Assembly: GCA_946415315.1 (NCBI GenBank)
Contig: CAMKRZ010000003.1
Span: 124,001 to 188,000, forward strand
Direction: 5' to 3'
Source of the DNA: an uncultured Lachnoclostridium sp.
Lineage (GTDB): Bacteria; Bacillota; Clostridia; Lachnospirales; Lachnospiraceae
DNA length: 64,000 bases
The first letter of the stretch is position 1. The number at the start of each line of letters is the position of its first letter. The position numbers and the translations under genes were made by a program. Shown piece by piece: positions 20,589 to 39,325 of this stretch. The notes under the pieces are model-generated. The model saw nothing but the letters and a program-made list of their open reading frames with translations, was not told the DNA's origin and did not search any database.

Positions 20589-20690
20589 AACTTTTTCCTC
20601 GCTTCCCATGGGAGTCAATCCCATCGAATATGTTACGCATTTTTCTTCTGTAAATATGCACGTTAAGGAATATTTACAACAATCTTTTTC

Positions 20691-20734
20691 AGTATAACTG
20701 TTGTAAAAATGCCTGTCAAGGCATACTTATGGAC
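20691..20734 (-). promoter_or_regulatory. Promoter and palindromic operator of Ig-repeat paralogue 1
   Basis: TTGACA (20714-20719), 17-base spacer, TATACT (20691-20696) on minus. The -35 lies at the centre of an imperfect inverted repeat (AAGTATGCCT, TGAC, AGGCATTTTT) that is perfect in paralogue 3. Confidence 0.85.
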
Positions 20735-20763
20735 ATTGTGCTCAGTATATGTTGAGAATCTTC

Positions 20764-20804
20764 AAAGAAAAAGGAAGTGCCCCGAACCGCTTCGAGACAC
20801 CTCC
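20764..20804 (-). terminator. Terminator of Ig-repeat paralogue 2
   Basis: On minus, GGAGGTGTCTCGAA pairs with TTCGGGGCACTTCC (some wobbles) around a 4-base loop, followed by TTTTTCTTT. It lies 24 bases beyond the stop. Confidence 0.88.
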
Positions 20805-20827
20805 CTGATGATTTTGTTCTTATCGGA

Positions 20828-23203
20828 TCATTTCACTGTCAGTGTGACAATGCTCGAGTACGACTTCCTACCGTTGCCGTCCGTCACGATACAGCGGAAC
20901 TGATAGCCGTTGAGCGCTTTCGTTGTTGCCACCGAGAGGGTTGCAGTCTTGTTGCCGCTCTGTCCGGAGTCTGCCCATGCACTCGAGGAGTTCTTCCGAT
21001 ACTGCCACTGATAAGTGAGAGTTGCCTTGCCCGTTGCCGCAACCGTGAACTTCGCCTTGTTGCCGGCCGTTACGCTCTTGTCCGTCGGCTGAGTTGTGAT
21101 CCTCGGTTTCAGTGTAAGGGTAACTGTCTTCGAGTAGGACTTCTGTCCGTTCCCGTCTGTCACAATGCAGCGGAACTGATAACCGTGAATGGCGGCGGTT
21201 GTAGAGACGAGAAGCGTATCGGTCTTCGCTCCCTGCTGCCCTGAGTCTGCCCATTCTGCGGATTCGTTCTTCCGGTATTGCCACTGGTATTTCAGCGTTC
21301 CCTTGCCGGTCGCTGCGATCGTAAACTTCGCCGTGGAGCCTACCAACAGATCCTTATTTACCGGCTGGGTGGTGATCCTCGGCTTCAGGCTCAGTGTTGC
21401 AGCGCGTGTATACGATTTCTGTCCGTTTCCGTCCGTCACGACACAGCGGAACTGATAGCCATGAAGAGCTGCCGTTGTGGAAACAAGAAGCGTATCGGTC
21501 TTCGCCCCCTGCTGACCGGAGTCTGCCCATTCACTCGAAGAATTCTTTCGGTACTGCCACTGATACTTCAGTGTCGCCTTGCCCGTAGCTGCAACTGTAA
21601 ACTTCGCTGTAGATCCTACCAGCAGGCTCTTATCCACAGGCTGCGTGGTAATCCTCGGTTTCAGGGTCAGGGTTGCAGCATTGGAGTATGCCTTCCCTCC
21701 GGTGCTGTCGCTGACAACGCAGCGGAACTGGTATCCGTGCATACCTGCCGTTGTTGTCACCAGAAGCGTATTGGTCTTGTTGCCGCTCTGTGCGGAATCT
21801 GCCCAGGCGCTCGAGGAATTCTTGCGGAACTGCCACTGGTACTGTAACGTCCCGGTTCCGGTAGCTACCACTGTAAACTTCGCCTTTGAACCGACAAGCA
21901 GGCTCTTGTTTCCCGGCTGCGTGGTGATCTTCAGCGTTGAAGCCGGTGCCGCAAGTTTCTGCGGAATACTTGCATAGTCAGTCTCGTGAATGCTGTTCAC
22001 ATCTTCAGCAAGCAGATAGACATAGTAACTGCTGTTCCAACCGCTTAAGGAAAGGCCGGACGGTAGCGTGAACGTTCCTGTTCCGGTAGTTGCAAACGTG
22101 CCGCTTGTGGTTAATTTTCCGTAGTATTTAATCTTCGCGCTGTTCGTGTTGCCTGCCGTATAAGTCTTATCAAGGATCAACACCGATACCTGCGTAGCCT
22201 TCGATGCATCACTTCCCGTAATCGTGTAAGGCACGGTGATCTTGCTGCCCGAAGCTGTCACTGTTTTCCCTGACTGGATGCCGACCGTAAGGTTACTGTC
22301 TGCAAGAGTCAACTTATATTCGGCGTTGTCTTTGCCGGCAGTTCCCTTGACAACAGACGAAAAGATGATGGATGACAGATTGACGTTAAAGGCGGGGCTT
22401 ACACCGTTTGGACTCCCCTTATAACTGTAATCAAGCATGCCGGCTGGCTGAGTATGAATAGTGCCGGCGTATTGATAATAGGTACCATACTCCTCGGTCA
22501 TATTGGAACGCAACCACCAGTAGCCATAATAATCCTCCCCGAAAAACAACTTAGCTCTGCTGGTACTTTCCGTTGAACTTCTGTATCCATACGTCGGATT
22601 GGAGGCTTCTTCACAGTCCAGAAAAAAGATTTTCTCACCGGTAAGCGCTATATAATCACCAAAAACCTCTTTCCACTCTGCGGAAACACACCCCGCCGTA
22701 TTACCGGCAACCAGTCCGTGTGACGCCACTTTGCTTCCGATAATAGCGTTTCTCTCAATTGCAGAAAAGCCTTTTGCCTTGGTAAGAAACTCTCCCCCGT
22801 TAACGCCTGCTTTGACATCACTCTCCGCCCAAAAGCCGGGCGTTTCATCCGATGTTTCTTCTTCTGCAAACAGAGCCTCGTATAATACACTATCGCAATC
22901 GAGGAACAGAGTAGGCTTTTCTGCGTTGGAAAACAAGGAACATTTAGGATTCAGCACGCGATATTTCACCGGGGTGCCATCATATTTGCCGTACCATACG
23001 TAACTCCCGGTCCACGGCGTGCTCACATCGGCAGGCGCTGCCGGCGCCTTGATGACCGACGTACTAAGCCCTGCAACAGTCTTCGTCCAGGTATCCGTTG
23101 CCGCCTGTGCCCTGCTGACAAGATTGGCAAAGTTCAGCAACGATACCACCATGGCCACTGACAGAAGTGCTGCCAGCAACCGTCCCAATACATGTTTTTT
23201 CAT
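20828..23203 (-). CDS. Secreted DUF6273-like protein with four Ig-like repeats (paralogue 2)
   Basis: 791-residue paralogue of the neighbouring gene with the same plan. The signal peptide starts MKKHVLGRLLAALLSVAMVV and ends near SRAQAA. The DUF6273-like region has YVWYGKYDGTPVKYRVL and WWLRSNMTEE, then the linker domain, then four Ig-like repeats to a bare C-terminus (SIVTLTVK). ATG at 23203 is preceded by GAGGAAGG; an upstream in-frame extension to 23326 runs into the promoter and is rejected. Block similarity to paralogue 1 (116 bases, one mismatch) suggests recent recombination. No anchoring motif is visible. Confidence 0.85.
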   Translation of the reverse strand: MKKHVLGRLLAALLSVAMVVSLLNFANLVSRAQAATDTWTKTVAGLSTSVIKAPAAPADVSTPWTGSYVWYGKYDGTPVKYRVLNPKCSLFSNAEKPTLFLDCDSVLYEALFAEEETSDETPGFWAESDVKAGVNGGEFLTKAKGFSAIERNAIIGSKVASHGLVAGNTAGCVSAEWKEVFGDYIALTGEKIFFLDCEEASNPTYGYRSSTESTSRAKLFFGEDYYGYWWLRSNMTEEYGTYYQYAGTIHTQPAGMLDYSYKGSPNGVSPAFNVNLSSIIFSSVVKGTAGKDNAEYKLTLADSNLTVGIQSGKTVTASGSKITVPYTITGSDASKATQVSVLILDKTYTAGNTNSAKIKYYGKLTTSGTFATTGTGTFTLPSGLSLSGWNSSYYVYLLAEDVNSIHETDYASIPQKLAAPASTLKITTQPGNKSLLVGSKAKFTVVATGTGTLQYQWQFRKNSSSAWADSAQSGNKTNTLLVTTTAGMHGYQFRCVVSDSTGGKAYSNAATLTLKPRITTQPVDKSLLVGSTAKFTVAATGKATLKYQWQYRKNSSSEWADSGQQGAKTDTLLVSTTAALHGYQFRCVVTDGNGQKSYTRAATLSLKPRITTQPVNKDLLVGSTAKFTIAATGKGTLKYQWQYRKNESAEWADSGQQGAKTDTLLVSTTAAIHGYQFRCIVTDGNGQKSYSKTVTLTLKPRITTQPTDKSVTAGNKAKFTVAATGKATLTYQWQYRKNSSSAWADSGQSGNKTATLSVATTKALNGYQFRCIVTDGNGRKSYSSIVTLTVK
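21306..21421. repeat. Near-identical block shared with paralogue 1
   Basis: These 116 bases match 18694-18809 with a single difference (CAACAG versus CAGCAG), while flanking repeat DNA differs more. A mark of gene conversion or repeat shuffling between the two genes. Confidence 0.75.
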
Positions 23204-23297
23204 AAGCGCCTTCCTCTCTTCCCATGGGATAGCAATCCCAACCAACTTTTCTCCAAAATGGTCTTTTTGTGAGTGTATTCTCACAGCCGCTTTGTTC

Positions 23298-23341
23298 AGT
23301 ATAGCGGTTGCAAAAATGCCTGTCAAGGCATACTTACAGCC
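23298..23341 (-). promoter_or_regulatory. Promoter and palindromic operator of Ig-repeat paralogue 2
   Basis: TTGACA (23321-23326), 17-base spacer, TATACT (23298-23303) on minus, with GTAAGTATGCCT before TGAC and AGGCATTTTTGC after. Layout as in paralogue 1. TACTGAGC lies further upstream, as in the other two copies. Confidence 0.85.
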
Positions 23342-23499: not shown

Positions 23500-24276
23500 C
23501 TATCGTATGATCTCCCAGACGTACGTGAGCACCTTCTTCCGGTCGGTGATGATCCTCGCGCGGCAGTTCAGGCCGGTCTTTAGCGGTACTTCCCGGTTAT
23601 CGCCGTCGGTCAGTCCGTTTGCGTCAAGATCAACCCAGACTGCGCAGTAGGATGTCCCGCTCTGGGGATCGTACTGCACTTCCTCCGATATTTTCCGTAC
23701 GGTCCCCGTGATGGTCCCGTATTCCGAACTCGGGTAAACCGGGAAATCGATCCGGACCTGCTGTCCTTCCCGCACCTTTCCAATATCACTTCCAGTCGCG
23801 TAAAATAAGGCCTGGTACGTCTTCTGTCGGTCCGGGAAAATATATCCGACGAGGTTTCCCGACTGCAGAACGCTGCCGACCGCTTTATCCAGGCAGGTGT
23901 AGAAGTATCCGCTCTTCTCCGCTCGGATGACAAGCTTTCCGTCCAGGAGATCCTCCTCCTTAGGATCACTGTCGCTCCCCTGAGCTCTCGCCTCGTACAG
24001 CACGGTTCCCTCCGTGACATACTCACCGTCGCTCACGTTACTCTTTGTTATTCTGGCGCTGTAATCGCAGGTGACTTCCACGGCATCGTCTGTGTACGAA
24101 ACGGAACCCTCTGCTTCCGAAATAAGATCGATCTCGGACAGAGCCATCCAGGCCACGGCAATCACCAAAATTCCAAGCAGGATGTAAATAAATCCCACGA
24201 TCGCCGGATTCGGTTTCTTCTCATAGATCACAGTGCTTTCGGACATATCCTTCATTTCGATTGTGATCGGTTTCAT
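23500..24276 (-). CDS. HlyD-type membrane-fusion (adaptor) protein of a peptide exporter
   Basis: 258-residue protein with a short cytoplasmic N-terminus, one membrane helix (about 25-48) and an extracellular region with barrel-sandwich features (VSDGEYVTEGTVLYEA.., VREGQQVRIDFPVYPSSEYGTITGTV). This matches accessory proteins of bacteriocin and pheromone exporters. It is shorter than typical HlyD/MesE-type adaptors (about 400-450 residues) and lacks a long coiled coil. Its ATG overlaps the transporter stop (ATGA), so the two are translationally coupled and probably form one complex. Confidence 0.82.
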   Translation of the reverse strand: MKPITIEMKDMSESTVIYEKKPNPAIVGFIYILLGILVIAVAWMALSEIDLISEAEGSVSYTDDAVEVTCDYSARITKSNVSDGEYVTEGTVLYEARAQGSDSDPKEEDLLDGKLVIRAEKSGYFYTCLDKAVGSVLQSGNLVGYIFPDRQKTYQALFYATGSDIGKVREGQQVRIDFPVYPSSEYGTITGTVRKISEEVQYDPQSGTSYCAVWVDLDANGLTDGDNREVPLKTGLNCRARIITDRKKVLTYVWEIIR

Positions 24277-26483
24277 GACTTCGCCCCCTTCGTGTCACAC
24301 TCCTCCAGAGACTGCTGCCTCACGAGCTCGGCGTATCTGCCGTTTTGCCCGATCAGCTCTTTGTGCGTTCCCTCTTCGATTACAGCCCCCTTCTGCATGA
24401 CGAAAATCCTGTCGCAGTTCTTGATCGTGCTGAGCCGGTGCGCGATGAAGATCGTCGTGATGTCCTTCGCGTATTCGCGGATGGTGACATCCAGCGCCCG
24501 TTCCGTGATCGAATCCAGGTTGCTGGTCGCCTCGTCGAGAATCAGGATATCCGGCTTCTTCAGCATCGCTCTTGCGATTGCCAACCGCTGCCTCTGGCCG
24601 CCGGAAAGATTGGCTCCATTTTCCTCCAAAACGGTATCATACCGAAGCGGAAGTTCGCTGATGAACTCATGGGCCTGCGCCATTTTGGTCGCCTCTACCA
24701 CCGCTTCCATTGTCACGCCTTCCATGCCCAGAGTCAGGTTGTCGAAAATGCTTCCGCTGAACAGGAAGGTTTCCTGCGGGATGTATGCGATCTTATCCCG
24801 AAGGGCCTCGATCCGGATGTCCTCAATGTTGCGGTCTCCGAACAGGATCTCACCCTTCTCCGCTGCATACATGTGCAGTAGCAGCTTGGCCAGCGTCGTT
24901 TTGCCCGAACCGCTTTCTCCCACGAAAGCCACATGGCTGCCGCCCGGAATCTGCAGTGTGACATTTTCCAGAACGAGTTTTCTGGTACCGTACCGGAAAT
25001 CCAGGCTGCGGATGGTGATGTCCCCTCTGAGGCTTTCCGGGACAACCTTCCGCTGCTCCCGCTCGGTCTTCTCCGCCTCCAGATCGAGGATCTGCCCCAA
25101 ACGCTCCGCGGCGACCACAGCGGTCTGCATCTGCGGCTGCAGGTTAATCAGGTTCTTGATCGGATCGAGAAAATACACAAGCAGCGCGTTGAAGGTGATC
25201 AGTCCGCCGATCGTCATCTCCCCTCGAATGACGCTGATTCCTCCGATCCACAGGATCACCACCCCGCCGATCAGTTCTACGGTTCCTTTCAAACCTTCCT
25301 GGGCGTTGCTCACCCAGGTCAGTTTGAAAATGCTTTTGAGGAGCTTTACGAATTTCCGTTCCGTCTCCTGCTTGGTCTTGCGCTCCGCGTTGTACGCCTT
25401 CACCGTCTGAATTCCACTGAGGGACTCCACCATGTAGGACGTCAGCTGCGCGTTATTTTCCATCACGGCTTCATTCAGTTTCCGGTACGAATTCCGAAAA
25501 GCCATAACGATGATGCCGTAAAGCACTAGCATAAAGACCGCGATCAGAAACAGTTTCCCGTTCTGCGAGCACAGGATGATCGCGCCGAACACTGCCATCG
25601 CCGTGTCGATCATGATCGTCAGCGTCGCCCCGGAGATGGCGTCACGCACGCTCCCCGCATCTCCGAATCGGGAAATGATCTCACCGACTTTTCTCGTTCC
25701 GAAGAAATTCATGGGGAGATCCATGACATGACGATAGTAACCGAGCAACAGCGATATATCGAGTTTCTGACTCAGATACAGCATCATCTGCGACCGGATG
25801 ATGCTGAGCGCTATCCGGAAGAAGCACAGGATGATCATTCCGACGGAAAGCGTTGTCAGCGTTTTGGTGAGATTATTGGGCAGAACGGAGTCGATCAGGG
25901 CTTTGTAGTAGAAAGCCCCCAGCATTCCGAACAGCGTGAGGATCAGCGACGCGAAGAAGATATGCAGGATCAGGTTCTTCTGAGGCAAAAGCAGCGAGAA
26001 GAACCTGCCGAACAGCCCCTTGGTCTCCACGCCTTTTTTGAACGACGTATTTTTCGTGAGAAGGATCAACACTCCCGTCCAACGATACTCAGGAGCTTTT
26101 CCGTCGTCCGCCTCCCCGAAGAACTCCTCGGGCTTCAGTTTCACGACTCCCTTGGCAGGATCGGAGATCACGATCATTTTCCGTGTGATCTTCTGCACTA
26201 CTACATAGTGAACCAACTCGCCGTCGACGATCATATGGGCAATGCACGGAAGCGGAAACTCGGTGAACAGATCCTCCCGTTCACCCTGCACACATTTCGC
26301 CGTGAAGCCAAGCTGCTCCGCCGCCTGGACCATGCCGTACGCGTTGGTCCCCTGCGTGTCCGTACCCGCAGCCTCACGAATTTTCGTAATCCCGATCTTA
26401 TATCCGTTCTGTCTGCAGATCGTGGCCAGGCATGCCGCGCCGCAATCCGTCATGTCATATTGTTTCACACAATAGTATTTCAT
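24273..26483 (-). CDS. Peptidase-containing ABC transporter (C39 family) for a double-glycine-leader peptide
   Basis: 736-residue exporter. The N-terminal C39 peptidase has QYDMTDCGAACLATICR (catalytic Cys14) and the His/Asp segment HMIVDGELVHYVVV. A six-helix membrane domain spans about 165-440. The ATPase has GESGSGKTTLAK (Walker A), LSGGQRQRLAIARAML (signature) and ILILDEATS (Walker B). Such proteins cleave the leader after Gly-Gly and export the mature peptide. The obvious substrate is the peptide encoded just upstream (26589-26813). Confidence 0.95.
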   Translation of the reverse strand: MKYYCVKQYDMTDCGAACLATICRQNGYKIGITKIREAAGTDTQGTNAYGMVQAAEQLGFTAKCVQGEREDLFTEFPLPCIAHMIVDGELVHYVVVQKITRKMIVISDPAKGVVKLKPEEFFGEADDGKAPEYRWTGVLILLTKNTSFKKGVETKGLFGRFFSLLLPQKNLILHIFFASLILTLFGMLGAFYYKALIDSVLPNNLTKTLTTLSVGMIILCFFRIALSIIRSQMMLYLSQKLDISLLLGYYRHVMDLPMNFFGTRKVGEIISRFGDAGSVRDAISGATLTIMIDTAMAVFGAIILCSQNGKLFLIAVFMLVLYGIIVMAFRNSYRKLNEAVMENNAQLTSYMVESLSGIQTVKAYNAERKTKQETERKFVKLLKSIFKLTWVSNAQEGLKGTVELIGGVVILWIGGISVIRGEMTIGGLITFNALLVYFLDPIKNLINLQPQMQTAVVAAERLGQILDLEAEKTEREQRKVVPESLRGDITIRSLDFRYGTRKLVLENVTLQIPGGSHVAFVGESGSGKTTLAKLLLHMYAAEKGEILFGDRNIEDIRIEALRDKIAYIPQETFLFSGSIFDNLTLGMEGVTMEAVVEATKMAQAHEFISELPLRYDTVLEENGANLSGGQRQRLAIARAMLKKPDILILDEATSNLDSITERALDVTIREYAKDITTIFIAHRLSTIKNCDRIFVMQKGAVIEEGTHKELIGQNGRYAELVRQQSLEECDTKGAKS

Positions 26484-26588: not shown

Positions 26589-26813
26589 TTACACATACTT
26601 GTAGTACCACTTGGTACCTGCGTCGATCTTCTTTCTCGTATCGGTGTCAGCAACCCACTGCGTACCGATGCACTTGTATCCGTTGTACTCGGTCTTTACG
26701 GTATATCCGTTAGCCTTAAGGATGTATCTGGTGAAGCAGTCTGCGTAAACCGGAATATAGTGTCCGCCACCGTTGACGATCATCATCTCGTCCTGGTTCA
26801 TTGTCTTGAACAT
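26589..26813 (-). CDS. Double-glycine-leader peptide (bacteriocin or pheromone precursor)
   Basis: 74-residue precursor. The leader MFKTMNQDEMMIVNGG has the class II form: hydrophobic positions, Glu-Met-Met and Gly-Gly at 15-16, with a third Gly at 17. Cleavage would release a 57-58-residue cationic peptide with two Cys (26 and 48) that could form a disulfide, and an aromatic tail KWYYKYV. The start at 26813 has AAAGGAGAAAG upstream. The C39 transporter follows, and a LytTR-type promoter precedes it. I do not recognise the mature sequence. It could be a bacteriocin or the inducing signal of the adjacent AgrC-like kinase. Confidence 0.85.
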   Translation of the reverse strand: MFKTMNQDEMMIVNGGGHYIPVYADCFTRYILKANGYTVKTEYNGYKCIGTQWVADTDTRKKIDAGTKWYYKYV

Positions 26814-26951
26814 AATAGTCTTTCTCCTTTGTTTGTAAATGATTGGTTTCCGACTGCCTGCGCATAACAGAACGGAATGTGTTTGGTCATTTGTTAACAA
26901 AGCCAACCCCTGCAGGAAAAACCGATGCGGTTTCTTGATCCTGCAAGTATA

Positions 26952-26980
26952 TTATTACAATGCGCTTTCGGGGAAGTCAA
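26952..26980 (-). promoter_or_regulatory. Promoter of the peptide-transporter operon
   Basis: TTGACT (26975-26980), 17-base spacer, TAATAA (26952-26957) on minus, about 140 bases before the peptide start. Confidence 0.75.
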
Positions 26981-26988
26981 AGGGTTGT

Positions 26989-27017
26989 GGATGAACGGCA
27001 CTTTTTTTTGATGAACT
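26989..27017 (-). promoter_or_regulatory. Putative LytTR-binding direct repeats before the peptide operon
   Basis: On minus, GTTCATC occurs twice (27010-27016 and 26990-26996) with a 20-base period. The near copy, GTTCATCC (26989-26996), ends 8 bases before the -35. The same layout occurs before the regulator operon at 31785-31812. Spacing and position fit LytTR-family activators such as AgrA or PlnC. Confidence 0.7.
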
Positions 27018-27046
27018 ACACAAACGAGTCTGACAACGAGCCTCAT

Positions 27047-28357
27047 TCAGATACTCACATGCTCATCGTACCGTCGAACCACCGCATCCGTCATTACACG
27101 GAAAATGAGCGTCCCCGCGACAACGATCGCCGCCAGCAACCCGAAGTGAAACTCCGGCCGAAACTGAAGAACCCTCTCCACGAGGTACCGGAACACCAGG
27201 AAAAACAATAGCGTCAAGTACAACGCTGCCGCAAGTGCCCCCGCACCGAGGATCGCCAGTTCCCTGCGCCGCAGCCCCATTCGCTCGCTGCGCTCCATGC
27301 CGATACATTCCAACATCGTCATGTAGCGTTTGTTTCGCTGCAGATAGAACCAGAGGACGTAGAAAAGGGAAAGCATGATCAGCACGCAGATGCCCGTTCC
27401 GAGTCCAAGGAGGATGCGCCCGAATTTCGCGGTAAAAAAGGTCACAAGGCATATGGTCAAGCCCTTGTCCGTCAGGTTCAGCATCACATCCCCCGACGCG
27501 CTGTGAACCACCGTTCCTTCCCCCGGCTTTCCGGAAAATGTGAAATGGTCCGTGAAGGATCGCACCGTATCAAAATAGTATCGGATCGTGCCGCCACAGG
27601 GGACAAACCCTTCGCAGTCCTCCCCGCGGAGATGAACATAAAGGTGCTCGATGTGATAGTCGGAAAGTGTGTACTCATCGCTCTCGCGGTTTCTGAGAAG
27701 CGCCCGGTCGACCACCCCGGACACGACATAATCGGTCAGAATATCACGGTTCTTCACACGAATGGTGATTCGTTTTCCGACGATACTCTCCGGCTTTATT
27801 CCGAACACCGAAAGAAGGTAATTGTCCAGGAGGAGTTCACCCTCCCGATCCGGCCATGTTCCGCGGATCGGTTCCGCTGTGACATTTCCGCACCAGTCCC
27901 GTCGATCCGTGTACATGGCGATATCCAGCGAGGCCATGCCGGACGTAAGATTCTCATAGTACACCTTGCGCCCCAGACTGTACTGTTTTGTCGTCTCCGC
28001 TGTCCCATCGATCAACAGGGAAACATCCTTCATCAGCACAAGCTCCCCGTCCGCTGGGCGAAGCGCGATCATCTCCGCGCAGACATCGGCGCCGCATGCT
28101 TCCGCCCACGTTCTTTTTTCCGCAAGCTCCGTCTTCATCTCCGGAAAACTCCGTGCTCTCACATCCGTAAAGAAGTAGCATTGGCTGCGGTATTTTTCTT
28201 CAAACTCCCGGCAGTAATCACCGTAAAAACAACCGATGATCATCATGCAGAACAGAAGAAAGAAGCACAGCGCGAAACCGATGACGATCCTGATCCCGGT
28301 TTTCTTCCCCGCCGTCACATTGCGCAGGGCCGTAACCCATTTATCCTTCGCCGACAC
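27047..28357 (-). CDS. ABC transporter permease, FtsX-like (second subunit)
   Basis: 436-residue membrane protein from a GTG start with GGGGAG upstream. One N-terminal helix (about 25-47), a large extracellular region, and three C-terminal helices (about 290-425, including RRRELAILGAGALAAALYLTLL) give the FtsX/MacB permease topology. It overlaps the preceding permease gene by 17 bases. With the ATPase and the other permease it should form an exporter or peptide-resistance pump of the LolCDE/Bce type. Given its neighbours, self-protection against the encoded peptide is likely but not proven. Confidence 0.8.
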   Translation of the reverse strand: MSAKDKWVTALRNVTAGKKTGIRIVIGFALCFFLLFCMMIIGCFYGDYCREFEEKYRSQCYFFTDVRARSFPEMKTELAEKRTWAEACGADVCAEMIALRPADGELVLMKDVSLLIDGTAETTKQYSLGRKVYYENLTSGMASLDIAMYTDRRDWCGNVTAEPIRGTWPDREGELLLDNYLLSVFGIKPESIVGKRITIRVKNRDILTDYVVSGVVDRALLRNRESDEYTLSDYHIEHLYVHLRGEDCEGFVPCGGTIRYYFDTVRSFTDHFTFSGKPGEGTVVHSASGDVMLNLTDKGLTICLVTFFTAKFGRILLGLGTGICVLIMLSLFYVLWFYLQRNKRYMTMLECIGMERSERMGLRRRELAILGAGALAAALYLTLLFFLVFRYLVERVLQFRPEFHFGLLAAIVVAGTLIFRVMTDAVVRRYDEHVSI

Positions 28358-29117
28358 GTCCGTCTCCCCTCATTTTCAGACAACCGACTGTCAAAAACAC
28401 TACCGCCAGCACGGCAACTGCCGACACGGTCGGCAGGCTCATCTTCGGAAGGCGATACGTCACATTCATCGACGCTGTCACAAAGCGGTTCACCGTGAAG
28501 ATCACAAGCGCATTGACGCCGACAGCCAGCAGCAGGGCAAGCAGCTCCCGGAACACAAAATACAGAAAGTAGATTCCGGATATGGCTCCCCGGGACATTC
28601 CCAGACGATAATACATATCAATGCACGTCTTTCTCTCCGCCGCCTTCATTGCCCACGAATTGTACATCGTGTTCGCCCACACGACCCAGAGCACGATCGC
28701 CGTGATCGCGAACAGCAGATGCAAAAATAAAAGCACCGTCAACGCATCGTCCAGCTCGGCGCTCCAGATATCCTTTCCCACAAGGATCGCCTGAAACTTC
28801 GTCAGCCAGATCCGTCGCAGGGATGACACTTTTCCGTACGTCGGTATCCCGGCGTCGTCGTACACACTTACGGTAATCTCCCTCTCCCGAAGCCACTCCG
28901 TATCTTCACCTGAAAACCCCATCAGCTGAAAATCGTACGGAGCATTCATGCTCGCTCCCAGAAAGCTGTCGCCGATCCCGGAAATGTGCAGAAACATGGT
29001 GAATGAGAACAGCACCCCGACTAGCAGCATCGCATGGATCAGAACAGACAGGACGCATTCCCGTTTTCCGCCGGCAAACTCCCGATAGGCAAGTTTGAAC
29101 TCATCCGAGCATTTCAT
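28341..29117 (-). CDS. ABC transporter permease, FtsX-like (first subunit)
   Basis: 258-residue membrane protein: an N-terminal helix (about 22-45), an extracellular segment of about 80 residues, then three helices (about 125-147, 175-205, 222-245). This is a short FtsX-type permease and differs in length from its partner (436), so the transporter is probably a heterodimer. It overlaps the ATPase gene by 17 bases and the second permease by 17 bases, indicating tight translational coupling. Substrate unknown. Confidence 0.75.
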   Translation of the reverse strand: MKCSDEFKLAYREFAGGKRECVLSVLIHAMLLVGVLFSFTMFLHISGIGDSFLGASMNAPYDFQLMGFSGEDTEWLREREITVSVYDDAGIPTYGKVSSLRRIWLTKFQAILVGKDIWSAELDDALTVLLFLHLLFAITAIVLWVVWANTMYNSWAMKAAERKTCIDMYYRLGMSRGAISGIYFLYFVFRELLALLLAVGVNALVIFTVNRFVTASMNVTYRLPKMSLPTVSAVAVLAVVFLTVGCLKMRGDGRVGEG

Positions 29118-29778
29118 CCTTCACCACCGTCCCATCCATCAGCGTCACAATCCGATCGGCCACCTGCGCATCGTCGCGGTTATGGGTGATCAGAACCACG
29201 GTCTTCCCCTGTTTGCAGAGACCGCTGAGCAGTTTCATAATGTTGGCGCCGTTCTCGTAATCGAGATTCCCGCAAGGCTCGTCGGCAAATATCACCGATG
29301 GGTCGTTGACGATCGCTCTTGCGATGCTGACCCGCTGTTTCTCCCCTCCGGAGAGAACCCCGGCCTTGGTCGAGCGCTTATGCAGCAATCCCACCTGCGT
29401 TAGCGCCCGCGCGATCCTGTCCTCGCGCTCTTTCACGGCAATCCCGGCGATCATCAGCGCGATCTCGATGTTTTGCTCCACGGTATAGGCATCTTCCAAA
29501 AAGAAGTCCTGAAACACGAAGCCGACGTGTCTGCTACGGTAATTTGCGATCGCATGGTCCCGCATGGCGTAGAGGTCCTCCCCGTCGACCGACACGTTTC
29601 CCTCTGTCGGTTTCAGCAACCCGCCGAGCATCTTCAGCAATGTCGTCTTTCCGCTTCCGGACCGTCCGACTATGCTTACGAACTGCCCGTCCGGGATCAC
29701 CAGACTGACATTCTTTACGGGATAGATTTCCCCATCCCCATCACGAAAACGCTTACTCAGTTCATTTGCCGTAATCAT
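29101..29778 (-). CDS. ABC transporter ATPase (LolD/MacB type)
   Basis: 225-residue ATPase: VGRSGSGKTTLLKMLGG (Walker A), LSGGEKQRVSIARAI (signature), SVIFADEPCGNLD (Walker B), VVLITHNRDD (H-loop). This subfamily powers FtsX-type permeases in antimicrobial-peptide resistance and lipoprotein release. The start at 29778 follows GAGAGAT, and the preceding gene stops 4 bases upstream. Confidence 0.92.
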   Translation of the reverse strand: MITANELSKRFRDGDGEIYPVKNVSLVIPDGQFVSIVGRSGSGKTTLLKMLGGLLKPTEGNVSVDGEDLYAMRDHAIANYRSRHVGFVFQDFFLEDAYTVEQNIEIALMIAGIAVKEREDRIARALTQVGLLHKRSTKAGVLSGGEKQRVSIARAIVNDPSVIFADEPCGNLDYENGANIMKLLSGLCKQGKTVVLITHNRDDAQVADRIVTLMDGTVVKDEMLG

Positions 29779-29782
29779 CGCA

Positions 29783-30274
29783 CTATCTCTCAAAGTTCAG
29801 CTGAATGCCCATATTTTCCACGCAGATTGTTTTGTTCCACGAATCGTAGGTGAGAAACACGCCGAACAGATTTCCGGTGGACAGACAAGGGTACTCATAC
29901 TCGTAGGTTCCGGTCTTTTTCTGTAAGTCCGGATCGTATTCGTACGAGTTGTCAACAAACATGGCGTTCAGGTCGGCCGCAGCCCACAACTGCTCATCCG
30001 AAAGCCCTGTGGAAAAACCAAGCGCTTCACTGTTCTGCATCTTCACAATCCGATCGTACTGTTTCTGACGCCAATACGAATTCAGGTCGATATTGTATAA
30101 TTGTATGGTTTTCCCCTTTACCACGATATACGCATCAGGGAACTCCCCGTTACCGACAATATGGTAGGTCCCGTCACTGATATTTCCGTTGCCGAGTTTT
30201 AAGTATAATACAATCGCGATCGGGATTACTGCAATCACGATCAACGCGATGATGAGTTTCATTTTCTTTTTCAT
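29783..30274 (-). CDS. Small membrane-anchored protein of the exporter operon, unknown function
   Basis: 163-residue protein: a Lys-rich start, one hydrophobic helix (about 7-25, IIALIVIAVIPIAIVLYL) and an extracellular domain with YHIVGNGEFPDAYIVVKGKTIQLYNI. There is no lipobox. The N-terminus resembles that of the next upstream lipoprotein. I do not recognise the family. Its position next to the ATPase gene suggests an accessory or immunity role, an inference from context only. The DNA is visibly richer in A+T than the housekeeping genes. Confidence 0.7.
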   Translation of the reverse strand: MKKKMKLIIALIVIAVIPIAIVLYLKLGNGNISDGTYHIVGNGEFPDAYIVVKGKTIQLYNIDLNSYWRQKQYDRIVKMQNSEALGFSTGLSDEQLWAAADLNAMFVDNSYEYDPDLQKKTGTYEYEYPCLSTGNLFGVFLTYDSWNKTICVENMGIQLNFER

Positions 30275-30357
30275 TTGTTTCCATCCTCCTGCTCATGGTG
30301 GCAGATTGCAGAAGTCTTTGCTGTTCGATCAAAACCCGCCTGTACGAAACGACACGA

Positions 30358-30732
30358 TCAATCCTTGCGCTCGTAGATATCCCAGGAATCACACTTCTGA
30401 GACTTGTACAGTTTCATTGTGTCCGGAAGATCACTCAGCACATGATCCGTTTTCAGGACATACATTCCGTTTTTATCAACGATAAACAGATAGCACGAGT
30501 TATACGAATTCGACATGACATCATATGTTCCGGTACGCGTATAGACTCCCTCCGGATATTCGTTATCAATATCATTGAAATTATAAAAAACCACGTTCTT
30601 AAGCTCGGCCTGATCCTTCAAATAATTCACATAAATGCTCTTGTTTGATGATTTGCCGTTATACTGTTTCCCACAACCGGTAACCATAATTACCATTACC
30701 GCAATTACAATCAATGCTACTTTCTTTTTCAT
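30358..30732 (-). CDS. Small lipoprotein of the exporter operon, unknown function
   Basis: 124-residue protein with signal sequence MKKKVALIVIAVMVIMVTGC; the lipobox VTGC predicts a lipid-anchored surface protein. The remainder is hydrophilic and Tyr/Asp-rich (YVNYLKDQAELKNVVFYNF..) with no family I recognise. ATG at 30732 is 6 bases after AAAGGAG. It lies beyond the terminator of the regulator gene and heads the exporter operon. Small lipoproteins here commonly give immunity to an encoded peptide; this is inference. The sequence is AT-rich. Confidence 0.7.
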   Translation of the reverse strand: MKKKVALIVIAVMVIMVTGCGKQYNGKSSNKSIYVNYLKDQAELKNVVFYNFNDIDNEYPEGVYTRTGTYDVMSNSYNSCYLFIVDKNGMYVLKTDHVLSDLPDTMKLYKSQKCDSWDIYERKD

Positions 30733-30801
30733 TTTCTTCTCCTTTTTTGTCTGCAATTCTGCCACCACCGCATTTTCCGTCCGAAAAGGACGATATATTG
30801 C

Positions 30802-30831
30802 AAAAACCGTCGGCTTTGCAGCTGACGGTTT
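30802..30831 (-). terminator. Terminator of the LytTR regulator gene
   Basis: On minus, AAACCGTC and GACGGTTT form an 8-bp perfect stem with the 3' arm running into TTTTTG. Confidence 0.75.
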
Positions 30832-30887
30832 GAGCACAAAAACTATACTATTGTGAACAAAGCGCTTGATCGTTACCAAGCGAAGCG

Positions 30888-31607
30888 CTATCGAACCCTG
30901 TCAATCGTGACACTCTTAATGAACGCGGTATATGCCTCTTTCACGGAAGGCAGATACTTCCTTCCAATGGGAACCACCGTTCCGTTCGTCATCAGCAAAC
31001 CGTCGCCGTTCACCCTCTTGACATACTGGAGATTTGCCAGATAGGACTTGTGCGTCCGTATCATCGTCGTCCCCCGGGTCTGTCCCTCAATGGTTTTTAT
31101 GCTGTCATATCCCGGGACCTCGTCCTGCTCGAAGCAGATGTTCACGTAATTCCCCCTGGCCTGAACAGAAACAATCCGATCCAGCCGGATATGATCCGTA
31201 CCCTGGAATGTCTTGTAGGAAATGTCGATATTATCACGGTTTTCCCGGATGACGGTCCGGATGCAGGTTTCCACTCCGACCCGGTCAAGCGGTTTCTCCA
31301 GAAATGCCAGTGTCTTCAGGTCAATGGTCTCCCACTTGAGCTCCTTATGGCTTGTCACAAAGACAATCCGCCAGATCCGCTCGTTCCTGCGAACCTTCCC
31401 GAGGACTTCAAGTCCATCAATGCCGGGCATCTCGATATCGAGGAACAACAAATGGATTTTCTCGCCCTGATAAGCCAGAACATCCTCTCCGGAGGCAAAC
31501 TCGACGAACCCGTACTCCTGATTTTGCGCATCAAAAAAAGCGCTGCAAAGATCCCTGATCTGTGCGCGAAATACTTCTTCGTCATCGCAAATGCCAATGA
31601 GTATCAT
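30888..31607 (-). CDS. LytTR-family response regulator (AgrA-like)
   Basis: 239-residue regulator. The receiver domain has CDDEE, the phosphoacceptor in LLFLDIEMPGIDG (Asp57) and the Lys in LEKPLD. A LytTR DNA-binding domain (about 135-235) contains VSVQARGNYVNICF, MIRTHKSYLANLQYVKRVNG and GRKYLPSVKEAY. LytTR proteins bind paired direct repeats upstream of -35 elements, and two such sites lie in this locus. GGAGGGG is 5 bases before the ATG. Its probable partner is the kinase at 31829-33115. Confidence 0.93.
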   Translation of the reverse strand: MILIGICDDEEVFRAQIRDLCSAFFDAQNQEYGFVEFASGEDVLAYQGEKIHLLFLDIEMPGIDGLEVLGKVRRNERIWRIVFVTSHKELKWETIDLKTLAFLEKPLDRVGVETCIRTVIRENRDNIDISYKTFQGTDHIRLDRIVSVQARGNYVNICFEQDEVPGYDSIKTIEGQTRGTTMIRTHKSYLANLQYVKRVNGDGLLMTNGTVVPIGRKYLPSVKEAYTAFIKSVTIDRVR

Positions 31608-31640
31608 CGTACCCCTCCGGGTCTCGAGAGCGAAACGCGT

Positions 31641-31718
31641 TTAGTCGTTGTCGATCCCCAGGATATGGCAAAGCCAATCCCAAAAATCATACTCTCGTAA
31701 AATAATATCATTCATCAT
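31641..31718 (-). CDS. 25-residue ORF ahead of the LytTR regulator (candidate signal peptide)
   Basis: Starts at tandem ATG codons (31718 or 31715), with AAGGGGGTG and AGGAA upstream, and ends 33 bases before the regulator gene. The product begins MMNDIILREYDFWDW and continues with Leu-Cys-His-Ile-Leu-Gly and an acidic end, Ile-Asp-Asn-Asp. It is aromatic-rich with one Cys (17) and a net negative charge. It lies directly downstream of the LytTR-type promoter, so it would be the first product of the autoinduced operon. It is much shorter than AgrD, and no AgrB-like gene is present. It may be a small signal, a leader peptide, or an untranslated segment. Confidence 0.5.
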   Translation of the reverse strand: MMNDIILREYDFWDWLCHILGIDND

Positions 31719-31747
31719 TTCCTGCTGCACCCCCTTTTTTGTATTTC

Positions 31748-31776
31748 ATTATGGAAACCTTCCGGGGAAAAAGCAA
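31748..31776 (-). promoter_or_regulatory. Promoter of the 25-residue ORF and LytTR regulator
   Basis: TTGCTT (31771-31776), 17-base spacer, CATAAT (31748-31753) on minus. The -35 is weak, as expected for an activator-dependent promoter. Confidence 0.65.
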
Positions 31777-31784
31777 TCACTTTT

Positions 31785-31815
31785 GGATGAACGACGTGTT
31801 TTTTGGATGAACGAC
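31785..31815 (-). promoter_or_regulatory. Putative LytTR-binding direct repeats before the regulator operon
   Basis: GTCGTTCATCC occurs twice (31805-31815 and 31785-31795), 11 of 11 bases identical, with a 20-base period; the near copy ends 8 bases before the -35. Geometry is identical to the site at 26989-27016. Confidence 0.75.
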
Positions 31816-31828
31816 ATAGTTGCCGCTG

Positions 31829-33115
31829 TTACACGATAATTTCCGCGGTAAAAATGCCCGGTTCCTCCCGGATCTCAAATTCACCGTTTGCATTCGTGAC
31901 CGTATTGCGGATATTGACCAGTCCGAATCCATGATTCTTATGATCGCTCTTTGTAGTGCCGTGCCTGGTCCGGTTTCCGGGGTTAATCCGGCATGTGTTG
32001 GAAACCCGGATACAGATCCGCTCGCGGAACGTACCGCAGGAGATACTGATTTTCCGTTCTCTTCCTTCCTCCACCTGTTCCGCCGCCTCAACCGCGTTGC
32101 TTAAGAGGTTGGAGAAAACTACACAGAGGTCGAACACCTCCATTTCCGTCGGTCCGAGCATTCCGTCCCATTCCCAGGTAATACCCGCATTTTCCGCTTT
32201 CTGATACCATTCACTGACAATGGCATCCACAACGCCGATCCCGGTAAACTTCCGCACCTCAAGCTTCCGTGTTTCCGCGCGCATCCGCTCCACATAGGAT
32301 TTCAGCTGCTGCAGATCATTCGTCTGCAGACATTGCTCAAGCGCCGTGAGGTGGGCATTCACATCGTGTCGGAATCGCCGGATCTTCTGGTCATTCTCGA
32401 CGATCTCCCGGATATGCGTCTCCTGCCGTTTCAGGCACAACTGGTAGTATTCATTTTCCATCTTGTACTGCAGCGCCTTTTTTTCAATCTGCGACTGCCA
32501 CAATATGAGCGCCACGAATATGATCCCGACAATCACAAGACAAACGGAAAGCGGTCGGATCCAATCCGCCAATTCCGTTTTTTCCTCCATAATTCCCTGG
32601 GACACACTGATCACGAAGAACAGGCACACAGATCCCAAGAGGGCGATCATATACTGAGGGACGCTGAGCACCACCGTCTCCCTCTCTTCCCGCAGTCTTT
32701 TGAAAATGAAGAAGAATACGAAAAACAGAAGCGGGAACACAGCCTCCGCCGCAATCCCCCACCATTTGGAACGGATCAGAACAATATATCGGATTCCTGT
32801 TACAAACGAGAACAAATAGGTCACCAGAATCGAGAAGCTTCCTGTAGCGAAAAATGCGATCGGGAAAATCGACAGTACCCGGAGACGCTCTCCCTCCACG
32901 AGGACAAACAATGCCAGCAGCGCAGCTAAGGAAATGATAAATCTGTCATACCCGAAATCGAAGGCTTTACACAGCCCGACAGCCATCGGAGCAAGAACAA
33001 TTGCCGCGCCGAGGTTCAGCAGGACTTTTTTACGAAACGGCACGCAGATAATCCATCGGTAAACGATGTAATAACTGAGAAAATTGATCAGATAATCTGC
33101 CATACAAACAACCAT
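31829..33115 (-). CDS. AgrC-like sensor histidine kinase (GHKL type)
   Basis: 428-residue kinase. About six membrane helices fill residues 7-207 with little extracellular loop, the form of peptide-pheromone receptors such as AgrC and ComD. The phosphoacceptor region is KIRRFRHDVNAHL (His250) and the ATPase region has VVFSNLLSNAVEAAE and the G-box HGFGLVNIR. It should sense a peptide and phosphorylate the adjacent LytTR regulator. AGAGGCGG precedes the ATG. It has its own promoter at 33200-33228 without LytTR repeats, so receptor expression may be constitutive while the regulator is induced. Confidence 0.9.
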   Translation of the reverse strand: MVVCMADYLINFLSYYIVYRWIICVPFRKKVLLNLGAAIVLAPMAVGLCKAFDFGYDRFIISLAALLALFVLVEGERLRVLSIFPIAFFATGSFSILVTYLFSFVTGIRYIVLIRSKWWGIAAEAVFPLLFFVFFFIFKRLREERETVVLSVPQYMIALLGSVCLFFVISVSQGIMEEKTELADWIRPLSVCLVIVGIIFVALILWQSQIEKKALQYKMENEYYQLCLKRQETHIREIVENDQKIRRFRHDVNAHLTALEQCLQTNDLQQLKSYVERMRAETRKLEVRKFTGIGVVDAIVSEWYQKAENAGITWEWDGMLGPTEMEVFDLCVVFSNLLSNAVEAAEQVEEGRERKISISCGTFRERICIRVSNTCRINPGNRTRHGTTKSDHKNHGFGLVNIRNTVTNANGEFEIREEPGIFTAEIIV

Positions 33116-33199: not shown

Positions 33200-33228
33200 A
33201 TTATTCCATATTTTCCCCGATACGTCAA
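33200..33228 (-). promoter_or_regulatory. Promoter of the AgrC-like kinase gene
   Basis: TTGACG (33223-33228), 17-base spacer, AATAAT (33200-33205) on minus, about 85 bases before the ATG. Confidence 0.65.
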
Positions 33229-33383: not shown

Positions 33384-35771
33384 TCACTTCACCGTCATCG
33401 TAACAGTGTTCGAGTATGACTTCTGTCCGTTTCCGTCCGTCACGATGCAGCGGAACTGGTAACCGTTAAGCGATTTCGTGCTTGCCACAGAGAGCGTGGC
33501 AGTCTTGTTGCCGCTCTGCCCGGAGTTCGCCCATTCACTCGAAGCGTTCTTCCGATACTGCCACTGGTATGTCAGAGTCGCCTTGCCGGTCGCTGCCACG
33601 GTGAACTTCGCTGTAGATCCTGCGGTCACGCTCTTGTCTGAAGGCTGCGTCGTGATCCTCGGTTTCAGCGTCAACGTAACGGTCTTCGAATACGACTTCT
33701 GCCCGTTTCCGTCCGTCACAATACAGCGGAACTGATAGCCGTGAAGAGCTGCCGTGGTGGAAACAAGAAGTGTATCGGTCTTCGCGCCTGTCTGTCCGGA
33801 ATTCGCCCAGTCGGACGTTTCGTTCTTCCGATACTGCCACTGGTACGTAAGGGTTGCCTTGCCGGTCGCTGCCACCGTAAATTTCGCAGTGGAGCCGACA
33901 AGCAGGCTCTTATCTACCGGCTGTGTCGTGATCCGCGGTTTGAGTGTCAGAGTAACAGTCTTCGAATAGGACTTCTTGCCATTCCCGTCCGTCACGATGC
34001 ATCGGAACTGATATCCGTGAAGCGCTTCCGTGGTGGAAACTAACAAAGTATCGGTCTTCGCGCCCTGCTGTCCGGAATTTGCCCAGGAAGCAGACGAATT
34101 CTTACGGTACTGCCACTGATACGTAAGGGTTCCCTTGCCTGTCGCTGTCACCGTGAACTTCGCCGTGGATCCCACGAGAAGGCTCTTGTCTACCGGCTGC
34201 GTGGTGATCTTCGGTTTCATCGTAAGCGTTGCTGCCTGGGAGATTGCCTGGTTACCGTAACTGTCCTTCACGATGCATCGGAACTGATAGCCGTTGAGAC
34301 TTGCCGTTGTCGACACTTTAAGGGTTGCGGTCGTATTGCCGTTCTGTGCGGAATTCGCCCACGATGCCGAGGAGTTCTTGCGGTACTGCCACTGATATGT
34401 AAGAGTCCCGTATCCTGCTGCTGCAACGCTGAATGTTGCCTTGTCTCCTACATATGCGGTAGTTGATGACGGCTGGGTTGTGATCGTCAGTGATGTAACG
34501 GTGCTGCCGCTTTTCGTCAGTTTCACAGGCGTACTCGCATAGTCGGTCTCATGCATGCCGTTCTCGATCTCCGCGAGAAGGTATACGTAGTATGAGGAGC
34601 CCCAGCCGCTTGCGGTCAGTCCCGAAGGAAGCGTGAAGGTGCCCGTCCCGTTCAGAGGCGAAGTACCTGTGCTCTGAACGTTCAGTTTCCCATAATACTT
34701 GATCGTTGCATTGTTCGTGTTTCCGGACTTGTATTCCTTGTCCAGGATCAGCACGGAGACCCGGGTAGCCTGCTTAGCGTCTGCTCCGCTGATGACATAG
34801 GGGATCGTCACCTTGCTGCCGGAGATCGAACCGGTCTTGCCGTTGGCGATGCCTACGGTCAGGTTACTGTCTGCAAGGGTAAGTTTGTATTCCGCATTGT
34901 CTTCTCCGGCATACCCCGCAACAACGGAGGAGAAAATAACCGAGGACAGGTTGATATTAAAAGAGGGGCTCACACCACCGACGTGGTAGACGTACTTGCT
35001 TTCGAACATGCCCTCGCTGTCCACGCTGCCGACGTGGAGATCGTTGACATGGGGGTCGTGGATATTACTGGCAGAGCGCAAATACCACCAGGCGGCGTCG
35101 CCGCCTGAATTCTTCTTGACCCTACACGTCACCAGAAAGTCATCATAGAAATATCCGTATAAACTGTTCGAAACATCCTCACCGTCCAGCAGGAAGATCT
35201 TCTCCCCGGAAAGAGCGACATAGTTTACATATGCGCCTTTCGTCCAGAAAGCGACCTGCCCTGCGGCTGTTCCCTCAACAAGCGCATGCGAAGCGATCGT
35301 ACTCTTTGCAATGGCATTTTTCTCGATCGTCGTGAATCCGTTTTCCTTCGCAAGAAATGCGCTTCCGTTCAGACCGGCCTTTACATCGCTGTACTTCCAT
35401 TCATTCGGTTTCTGCGCACCTGTATTGGCCACCGCATCAGCGTCGAACGGTGCAGTATACAGAATGCTGTCACAATCCAACAGCATCGTTGTCCCGCCGT
35501 AGATCGTAGTCTTCGGTGCGAGCACACGGTACTTGATCGGCGTGCCGTCGTACTTACCGTACCATACATAGCTGCCGGTCCAAGCATCGTTCTCGCTACT
35601 CGGAGCCTTCGGCGCCTTGATTGCCGACGTGCTGAGCCCGGCAACGGTTTTATCCGCTGCGACAGCCGCCTTCGCAGTTCCGCCCGATCCCATCATCGGA
35701 AGCATTGTCGCTGCCATGACTACCGACAATGCTAACGCCAGAAGCCTTCTGACAACATTGCTTCGTTTCAT
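33384..35771 (-). CDS. Secreted DUF6273-like protein with four Ig-like repeats (paralogue 3)
   Basis: 795-residue paralogue. A signal peptide (MKRSNVVRRLLALALSVVMA.., ending near TAKAA) precedes a DUF6273-like region with YVWYGKYDGTPIKYRVL, TMLLDCD and the variant W-W-Y-L-R-S. The linker domain (YKLTLADSNLTVGI) and four Ig-like repeats (ITTQP, LTYQWQYRKN, GYQFRC) run to a bare C-terminus ending TVTMTVK. GAGAGGAA lies 8 bases before the ATG. It is closer to the two genes at 18-23 kb in its repeats than in its N-terminal half. No surface-anchoring motif is visible. Confidence 0.85.
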   Translation of the reverse strand: MKRSNVVRRLLALALSVVMAATMLPMMGSGGTAKAAVAADKTVAGLSTSAIKAPKAPSSENDAWTGSYVWYGKYDGTPIKYRVLAPKTTIYGGTTMLLDCDSILYTAPFDADAVANTGAQKPNEWKYSDVKAGLNGSAFLAKENGFTTIEKNAIAKSTIASHALVEGTAAGQVAFWTKGAYVNYVALSGEKIFLLDGEDVSNSLYGYFYDDFLVTCRVKKNSGGDAAWWYLRSASNIHDPHVNDLHVGSVDSEGMFESKYVYHVGGVSPSFNINLSSVIFSSVVAGYAGEDNAEYKLTLADSNLTVGIANGKTGSISGSKVTIPYVISGADAKQATRVSVLILDKEYKSGNTNNATIKYYGKLNVQSTGTSPLNGTGTFTLPSGLTASGWGSSYYVYLLAEIENGMHETDYASTPVKLTKSGSTVTSLTITTQPSSTTAYVGDKATFSVAAAGYGTLTYQWQYRKNSSASWANSAQNGNTTATLKVSTTASLNGYQFRCIVKDSYGNQAISQAATLTMKPKITTQPVDKSLLVGSTAKFTVTATGKGTLTYQWQYRKNSSASWANSGQQGAKTDTLLVSTTEALHGYQFRCIVTDGNGKKSYSKTVTLTLKPRITTQPVDKSLLVGSTAKFTVAATGKATLTYQWQYRKNETSDWANSGQTGAKTDTLLVSTTAALHGYQFRCIVTDGNGQKSYSKTVTLTLKPRITTQPSDKSVTAGSTAKFTVAATGKATLTYQWQYRKNASSEWANSGQSGNKTATLSVASTKSLNGYQFRCIVTDGNGQKSYSNTVTMTVK

Positions 35772-39236: not shown

Positions 39237-39325
39237 GGAGGAGTACCCAAGTGGCTGAAGGGTCTGGCTTCGAACACCAGTAGGTCGGTAACACCGGCGC
39301 AAGGGTTCAAATCCCTTCTCCTCCG
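39237..39325 (+). tRNA. tRNA-Ser (anticodon CGA)
   Basis: GGAGGAG acceptor pairs with CTCCTCC. The T arm is AAGGG-TTCAAAT-CCCTT. The anticodon loop TTCGAAC gives CGA, and a long variable arm typical of tRNA-Ser is present. The 31-39 pair of the anticodon stem is a C-A mismatch. CCA is not encoded. In relatives gpr often occupies this spot between rpsT and lepA. Confidence 0.92.

Follow-up and report, generated by a model that had tools for sequence, protein, structure and literature searches.

The DNA analysed here, called the window in the following, is a stretch of 64,000 nucleotides from an uncultured Lachnoclostridium sp. (GCA_946415315.1, contig CAMKRZ010000003.1, positions 124,001 to 188,000). 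Its minus strand carries a putative peptide-signalling locus composed of a GHKL histidine kinase, a LytTR response regulator, a 25-residue open reading frame (ORF) in front of the regulator gene and an operon encoding a double-glycine (GG) leader peptide together with a C39 peptidase-containing ATP-binding cassette (ABC) exporter (Table 1). The original prediction, made from the sequence of the window, described two promoters with the same LytTR-type operator as defining an autoinduced peptide circuit. This is right in outline, but it is the 25-residue ORF, and not the GG peptide, that constantly accompanies kinase and regulator. The reading favoured here, in which we place middling confidence, is an autoinduced three-component circuit of an AgrC-like kinase, the LytTR regulator and a leaderless peptide with a tryptophan motif (W-motif) as signal, with the GG peptides as output.

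Table 1. Features of the locus, with positions in the window
Feature	Position	Strand	Basis
HlyD-type accessory protein	23500..24276	-	HlyD_3 E 6.8e-10
C39 peptidase-containing ABC exporter	24273..26483	-	TIGR01193 693.7 bits, cut-off 523.85
GG-leader peptide, 74 residues, MFKTMNQDEMMIVNGG/GHYIPVY...	26589..26813	-	weak resemblance of the leader to TIGR03949, below cut-off (E 0.0043)
Promoter TTGACT-18-AATAAT (or -17-TAATAA) after GG-peptide operator	26951..26980	-	
Operator, GG-peptide operon	26989..27019	-	full pattern with 2 mismatches
ABC ATPase and two FtsX-type permeases	27047..29793	-	ABC_tran E 1.8e-36
163-aa ORF, no family	29783..30274	-	no family match
Small lipoprotein-like ORF after regulator	30358..30732	-	weak model matches, all below cut-off
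LytTR response regulator, 239 aa	30888..31607	-	LytTR E 9.5e-15, Response_reg E 7.6e-14, both above Pfam cut-off
25-residue ORF MMNDIILREYDFWDWLCHILGIDND, candidate autoinducer	31641..31718	-	found in 11/11 genus genomes with regulator
Promoter TTGCTT-17-CATAAT after small-ORF/regulator operator	31748..31776	-	read from sequence
Operator, small-ORF/regulator promoter	31785..31815	-	two LytTR-type GTCGTTCATCC half-sites, period 20; full pattern with 0 mismatches
GHKL histidine kinase, multi-helix N-terminal domain	31829..33115	-	HATPase_c_5 E 2.2e-21
Kinase promoter-like site TTGACG-17-AATAAT, without repeats	33200..33228	-	consensus match only

Operator geometry and co-occurrence with the regulator

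On the minus strand, the repeat pair in front of the GG-peptide operon reads GTTCATCA...GTTCATCC (27016-26989) and that in front of the small ORF and regulator GTTCATCC...GTTCATCC (31812-31785). In both, the period is 20 and GTTCATCC is separated by eight bases from the TTG of the -35 element. Sites, period and distance to the -35 element were all re-read as originally described. The repeat word GTTCATC(C) is likewise present at both promoters, but the conserved word is longer, namely TGTCGTTCATC twice with an A-rich stretch between. The 17-base spacer claimed for both promoters applies to the regulator side, whereas on the GG-peptide side it is 18 with AATAAT as -10 element and 17 only with TAATAA. 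As had also been proposed, a promoter-like site without repeats was found in front of the kinase gene, preceded by a terminator-like hairpin (33294-33266); it is a consensus match only, and promoter-like sites show no excess in the stretch as a whole (8 against 7.5 expected). The proposed genome search for GTTCATC pairs, run on the genome from which the window derives (2.93 Mb, 42 contigs), gave two exact matches to GTTCATC-N13-GTTCATC, both of them the pairs already reported. Looser matching is uninformative, with 45 sites in the genome at up to 2 mismatches and 12 in the window against 8.7 expected at up to 3. No exact match to the operator was found in IMG/VR, and an Rfam scan of window positions 18000-40000 returned a tRNA at 39237 and no other match. 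The closest relatives include metagenome-assembled genomes such as RUG14385, RGIG8119 and Lachnoclostridium sp. UBA1175, and the source of the window is very probably an uncultured Lachnospiraceae bacterium of the rumen.

In a sample of 22 genomes of the genus, the operator pattern GTCGTTCATC-NANAA-N5-GTCGTTCATC, with up to 3 mismatches allowed, was found at 58 sites in 13 genomes, while the reversed pattern used as control gave 0. With gaps of 3 to 25 bases permitted, all 43 exact half-site pairs share one gap (period 20), and one near-exact pair (1 mismatch) with period 19 was found in genome G010. A TTG stands at a single offset (9) from the operator in 54 of the 57 sites with enough sequence, the promoter not being part of the search; among these 54, the spacer measures 17 bases at 30 sites, 18 at 16 sites and 16 at 4 sites, and it is unclear at the last 4. 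Of the 22 genomes, 11 encode a regulator orthologue, and the ten besides that of the window are 72-83% identical to it. The operator is present in all 11 of these genomes, upstream of the regulator on the same strand in each, versus 2 of the 11 regulator-less genomes (Fisher p = 1.1e-4, shared ancestry ignored). These two are G021, which is 79% complete and has a kinase fragment at a contig end, and G019, in which the operator precedes a 98-residue ORF (locus L094, G019:C35:47000-52500). The repeats themselves are strongly supported by this comparison. One LytTR-type operator common to the two promoters, as first proposed, is supported by the fixed geometry and by the co-occurrence with the regulator in the genus, and we infer from this comparison that the neighbouring LytTR regulator binds it.

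The geometry lies in the range described for LytTR proteins. A passage of PMC2766830 gives 9-bp repeats with a 12-bp spacer as the usual arrangement and 10+11 for SilA, where a change of the spacing by one base in either direction abolishes activity, and PMC4847170, in the part consulted, gives repeats of 9-11 bp with spacers of 11-13 bp; a period of 20 corresponds to 9+11 if the half-site is taken as 9 bp.

The number of operators varies among the genomes, with 10 sites in G007, 9 in G010, 8 in G001 and 7 in G003, and the additional sites in these site-rich genomes precede ORFs which, judged by eye, resemble secreted, lipoprotein-like or ABC-type proteins. One site in G001 (locus L095, G001:C9, 704-3559) is followed by genes for a Cys/Gly-rich peptide of 71 residues and a radical-SAM protein and by another ORF of 338 aa, possibly an operon resembling those for ribosomally synthesized and post-translationally modified peptides that belongs to the regulon. 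Outside the genus the two half-sites can drift jointly, reading GTAGTTCATC twice in L172 and GTCGTTCGTC twice in L179. At two further loci (L168, 932-951; L169, 7402-7421) back-to-back operators adjoin a paralogous regulator (57 and 56% identical), and a kinase similar to that of the window was not found at either locus.

The small W-motif ORF in front of the regulator

In ten of the eleven regulator-bearing genomes of the genus, the operator preceding the regulator is followed by an ORF of 24 to 36 residues. In the eleventh, G001, the regulator has another operator and the small ORF lies behind an operator of its own, followed by a gene for a VanZ-like membrane protein (PF04892, E 1.8e-23; L093, G001:C14, 10204-11000). 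The consensus of the 11 members is MNDxxxILxEYDFWEWLCxILGIPxx. At E values up to 0.01, a profile built from them retrieves these 11 and no sequence from the 11 remaining genomes; small ORF and regulator occupy an identical set of genomes. In the core of the ORF the ratio of nonsynonymous to synonymous polymorphism (pN/pS) is 0.23 in frame, while the two alternative frames give 0.87 and 1.83; the amino-acid identity exceeds that of all 2000 column shuffles; the small ORF is therefore very probably translated and under purifying selection. At five more distant loci (L163, L164, L166, L167 and L172; regulator 63-70% identical) the operator is followed by a diverged W-rich ORF. The W-x-W motif is present in all 11 genus members and in 16 of the 23 peptides collected in total.

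A Pfam and NCBIfam scan of the 11 small ORFs gave no match above cut-off, and none at all in NCBIfam. Five of them weakly resemble a Pfam viral membrane-anchor profile (best E 0.0028, below cut-off), which at this sub-threshold level was taken as chance or convergence. An amphipathic helix is unsupported by the hydrophobic moments, as 0.09 to 0.86 of the shuffles reach values as high. A conserved thiolactone, and with it an Agr-type peptide, is unlikely since Cys occurs in only 8 of the 11.

The Trp codons of the ORF and a downstream hairpin would also fit control of the regulator gene by attenuation, with the ORF serving only as leader peptide. A hairpin between small ORF and regulator is conserved in seven relatives of the genus. 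In it 98.9% of cells are paired and the covariation score is 0.190, and 26 of 500 shuffles attain each of these values, whereas 146 of 500 attain its number of two-sided pairs (2). In an uncalibrated scan, terminator-like hairpins follow the ORF at the five distant loci. These hairpins suggest that in those loci the small ORF may have a short transcript of its own. In the species of the window, however, the two genes are separated by 33 nt in which no hairpin was found, no regulator gene follows the small ORF in G001, G445, G022 and L183, and residues besides Trp are conserved too, which makes attenuation very improbable.

Kinase pairing within and beyond the genus

The kinase was found in all 11 genomes of the genus that encode small ORF and regulator, split over two frames (two pieces) in G002. 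A model predicted from 20 sequences has about seven N-terminal helices (mean pLDDT 75, pTM 0.44), and in a comparison with the PDB the cytoplasmic structures of AgrC rank first (E 4.7e-9, TM-score by query length 0.27). Across 15 loci the mean identity of the kinases is 49% in the N-terminal and 75% in the C-terminal half. Given the distance between regulators, the distance between the small peptides tracks that between the N-terminal kinase halves (partial r 0.63, p 2e-4, 15 loci; these tests were made without G002), a value exceeding all 81 control windows. Within the genus alone a trend with the C-terminal half is absent (p 0.69).

In profile searches of 299 and later 397 genomes of the family, together with a loose motif scan of 29 loci and inspection of the neighbouring genes, small ORFs beside genes of kinases similar to that of the window were found in five other family members. 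G299 has three tandem copies, MVFYICDLTDWLKWILGIHK and two variants, of which the third lacks W. In G378 the ORF, MMDYRDFWEWLRRLIGGK, lies upstream of the kinase; in G445, MWLNGDLSFWEWMKKLLGGK lies beside it; and in L183 and in G022 (L045), MMLSNGYIFWHWFRKFWK and MMTFSGLYRDIWEYIFKLLGK, respectively, lie behind it. Half-sites of the form CGTTYRTTC with period 20 stand between kinase and small ORF in G445 and L183. The profile matches outside the genus are mostly noise. Among 50 loci taken from these searches, the first of which contributed the loci of its best matches only, a kinase neighbour was found solely at those of G299, G378 and G445, that of G378 being a weak, partial match. The E values from independent profiles (0.016 for G299, 0.0017 for G378, 0.028 for G445, none for G022 and L183) would not stand over hundreds of genomes without the kinase neighbourhood. 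G445 was accepted on kinase neighbour and repeats alone. L045 and L183 come from the loose motif scan with its many chance matches and without independent profile support, and were accepted for their place behind the kinase, where L183 has repeats and L045 a single half-site. In the final search, all non-genus matches with E at most 1e-3 (G299, G378, G445 and G022) adjoin a kinase, the profile already containing these four sequences, and the further loci of this 397-genome search gave no additional small ORF beside a kinase. The comparison of loci shows the pairing of small ORF and kinase.

Two of these loci have features of their own. The tandem array of G299 (L264, G299:C150, 850-3720) consists of three units. 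In each of them an inverted repeat and promoter-like DNA accompany a small ORF whose C-terminus varies; the inverted repeat is GTCATTTGCATGAAATGAC in units 2 and 3, and remnants of the kinase tail stand before the later units. In G378 a reverse transcriptase ORF, judged from sequence only to be of the group II intron type, lies upstream of small ORF and kinase (L265, 1916-3307).

Small size, linkage to the operator and tandem copies with variant ends in G299 would be compatible with a secreted effector, such as a leaderless bacteriocin or a surfactant-like peptide, as one more member of the regulon. This is improbable, as the small ORF stays with kinase and regulator in G016, where no second operator was found in the genome, and directly adjoins kinase genes in other genera. 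Less easily set aside, although still rather unlikely, is a role in feedback on the kinase from inside the cell or the membrane, following the logic of MgrB or SafA, instead of one as extracellular signal. It would agree with the pairing with the kinase, the co-variation with its N-terminal domain, the aromatic, hydrophobic core without visible export signal and the weak membrane-anchor resemblance in 5 of 11 members. The core, however, is rather short to cross a membrane fully and shows no clear amphipathicity, and RtgS, a small W-motif peptide without GG leader, acts from outside according to the section consulted of PMC7018657.

Proposed signal and output of the circuit

Three-component systems of the GG-pheromone type (ComCDE, Blp, Pln, Sil) combine a GG-leader peptide and a C39 exporter with kinase and regulator, and the predicted kinase of the window is likewise a GHKL kinase with several membrane helices. 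PlnCD and ComDE are further LytTR/GHKL-kinase systems regulating bacteriocins and pheromones. SilAB and BlpRH share with the locus described here the GHKL kinase and LytTR regulator, a pair of direct repeats immediately before the -35 element, a regulator operon behind its own operator and GG peptides and a C39 exporter in the regulon. They differ in the period of the repeats, 21 there according to a passage of PMC2766830 and 20 here, and in that the constant partner of the kinase here is the leaderless W-motif peptide while the GG exporter is sometimes absent.

By analogy with these systems the processed GG peptide, exported by the C39 exporter, would be the ligand of the kinase and the 25-residue ORF an accessory; the original prediction likewise took the GG-leader peptide for the signal. 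GG peptide, exporter and HlyD protein all stand behind the operator, which precedes the GG-peptide/exporter operon in 10 of 10 genus genomes with a C39 exporter. The exporter accompanies the regulator in 10 of the 11 genus genomes, and in the gallocin system a secreted peptide, a kinase and a LytTR regulator govern a bacteriocin, as stated in the portion consulted of PMC8545106. A search of ten genomes gave an orthologue (70-82% identical) in G343, G344, G349 and G351 and, with an internal stop, in G347, and none in G016, G345, G346, G348 and G350 (best matches 28-33%). The loci of G348 and G350 show no W-rich ORF, but G016 (98% complete), G345 (L166) and G346 (L167) retain kinase, regulator, operator and small ORF, which argues that the GG peptides are output. 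One to five GG peptides per locus (five in G001, three in G007) are also more like an output, and G022 has regulator, kinase and small ORF while no exporter was recognised among the ORFs of its 16-kb contig, a genome-wide search not being made. With the exporter present in nearly all regulator-bearing genomes of the genus, the GG peptide as signal keeps some probability, but we regard it as unlikely; the 25-residue ORF is the more probable signal, at about even confidence.

In the favoured three-component circuit, an AgrC-like kinase made from its own promoter would activate the LytTR regulator, which would bind immediately before the -35 element, at the two TGTCGTTCATC half-sites with their period of 20 bp. 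The regulator, presumably acting as activator rather than repressor, would switch on the gene of the leaderless W-motif peptide of about 25 residues, with its own gene 33 nt behind, and as output the GG-peptide/C39-exporter operon. Once exported, the W-motif peptide, whole or as a fragment, would be the kinase ligand and close the loop.

Besides the regular company of exporter and regulator in the genus, several observations weigh against this circuit. The small ORF shows neither a signal peptide nor a GG leader, and an exporter dedicated to it was not seen, which leaves its export unexplained. The W-x-W motif is not universal: it is carried by 2 of the 5 further orthologues, with WW in the remaining three, and by 3 of 7 peptides of other genera, one of which has no W at all. 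Over the 15 loci the peptide also tracks the C-terminal half of the kinase (partial r 0.36, p 8e-4). Within the genus alone, the trend with the N-terminal half is weak (r 0.42, p 0.06), with 10 of 81 control windows as high. G019 has one operator site without a match to kinase, regulator or small ORF. Beyond the genus, G299 carries an inverted repeat instead of the direct-repeat operator, G022 has a single clear half-site, and G378 has no recognised operator, its ORF being upstream of a kinase cut by a contig end. By eye, period-20 repeats behind the kinase of L176 are followed by a 17-residue ORF without W, and two other loci with repeats have no intact W-rich ORF, that of L179 being interrupted at the fourth codon and L171 having a nine-codon ORF only. 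Downstream of its kinase (12130-12480), L176 also has two short Cys-rich ORFs, MRYIRRPENVYVVGECYNCPCNKNCTNNH and MKYLVKPADKYVYGYCYSCRCNSKCTCNGGSSYFF, which follow a period-20 repeat.

The best functional parallel is the pneumococcal rtg locus, where, as the part consulted of PMC7018657 describes, several GG peptides and an ABC exporter with peptidase domain are under the control of the small Trp-X-Trp pheromone RtgS. The likeness, taken here as functional, consists in a small W-x-W peptide with GG peptides and exporter as regulon. In contrast, the same source describes RtgR as an Rgg-type regulator and RtgS as dependent on PptAB and Ami, whereas here the neighbours of the small ORF are a GHKL membrane kinase and a LytTR regulator and not an Rgg-type receptor. 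Agr (AgrBDCA) is resembled by the kinase model, nearest to AgrC cytoplasmic structures, and by the LytTR domain of the regulator; it differs in that Cys is not conserved in the small ORFs, and no AgrB was found among the 10 window proteins scanned, a genome-wide search not being made.

Searches of open-access literature, a scope that leaves out most subscription papers, gave no title or abstract beginning describing such a peptide, operator or locus and no report of a leaderless W-motif peptide with a LytTR kinase system; they gave little on peptide signalling in rumen Lachnospiraceae. This variant of LytTR peptide signalling, and the peptide class itself, are possibly new. The broader proposal of a new class of leaderless Trp-motif pheromones sensed by AgrC-like kinases with LytTR regulators in several Lachnospiraceae genera, with the GG peptides as dispensable output, seems to us marginally less assured than the circuit in the window. 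If true, the signal type of the streptococcal Rgg systems would be joined to the receptor type of Agr and Com, and a GG peptide encoded next to a LytTR system would not have to be its signal. The 16 orthologous peptides and seven from five other lineages would then form a list of testable signals, together with the operator for their read-out and with candidate regulons, which range from 1 to 10 sites per genome.

Among the remaining genes of the locus, the FtsX domain was recognised at 27047-28357 (E 5e-6) and at 28341-29117 (E 0.00033, below its cut-off); as a guess, these ABC/FtsX genes may serve immunity or export. The locus is flanked by three large similar ORFs of 802, 832 and 795 aa with repeated segments (18216-23326 and 33384-35771), which by eye look secreted.

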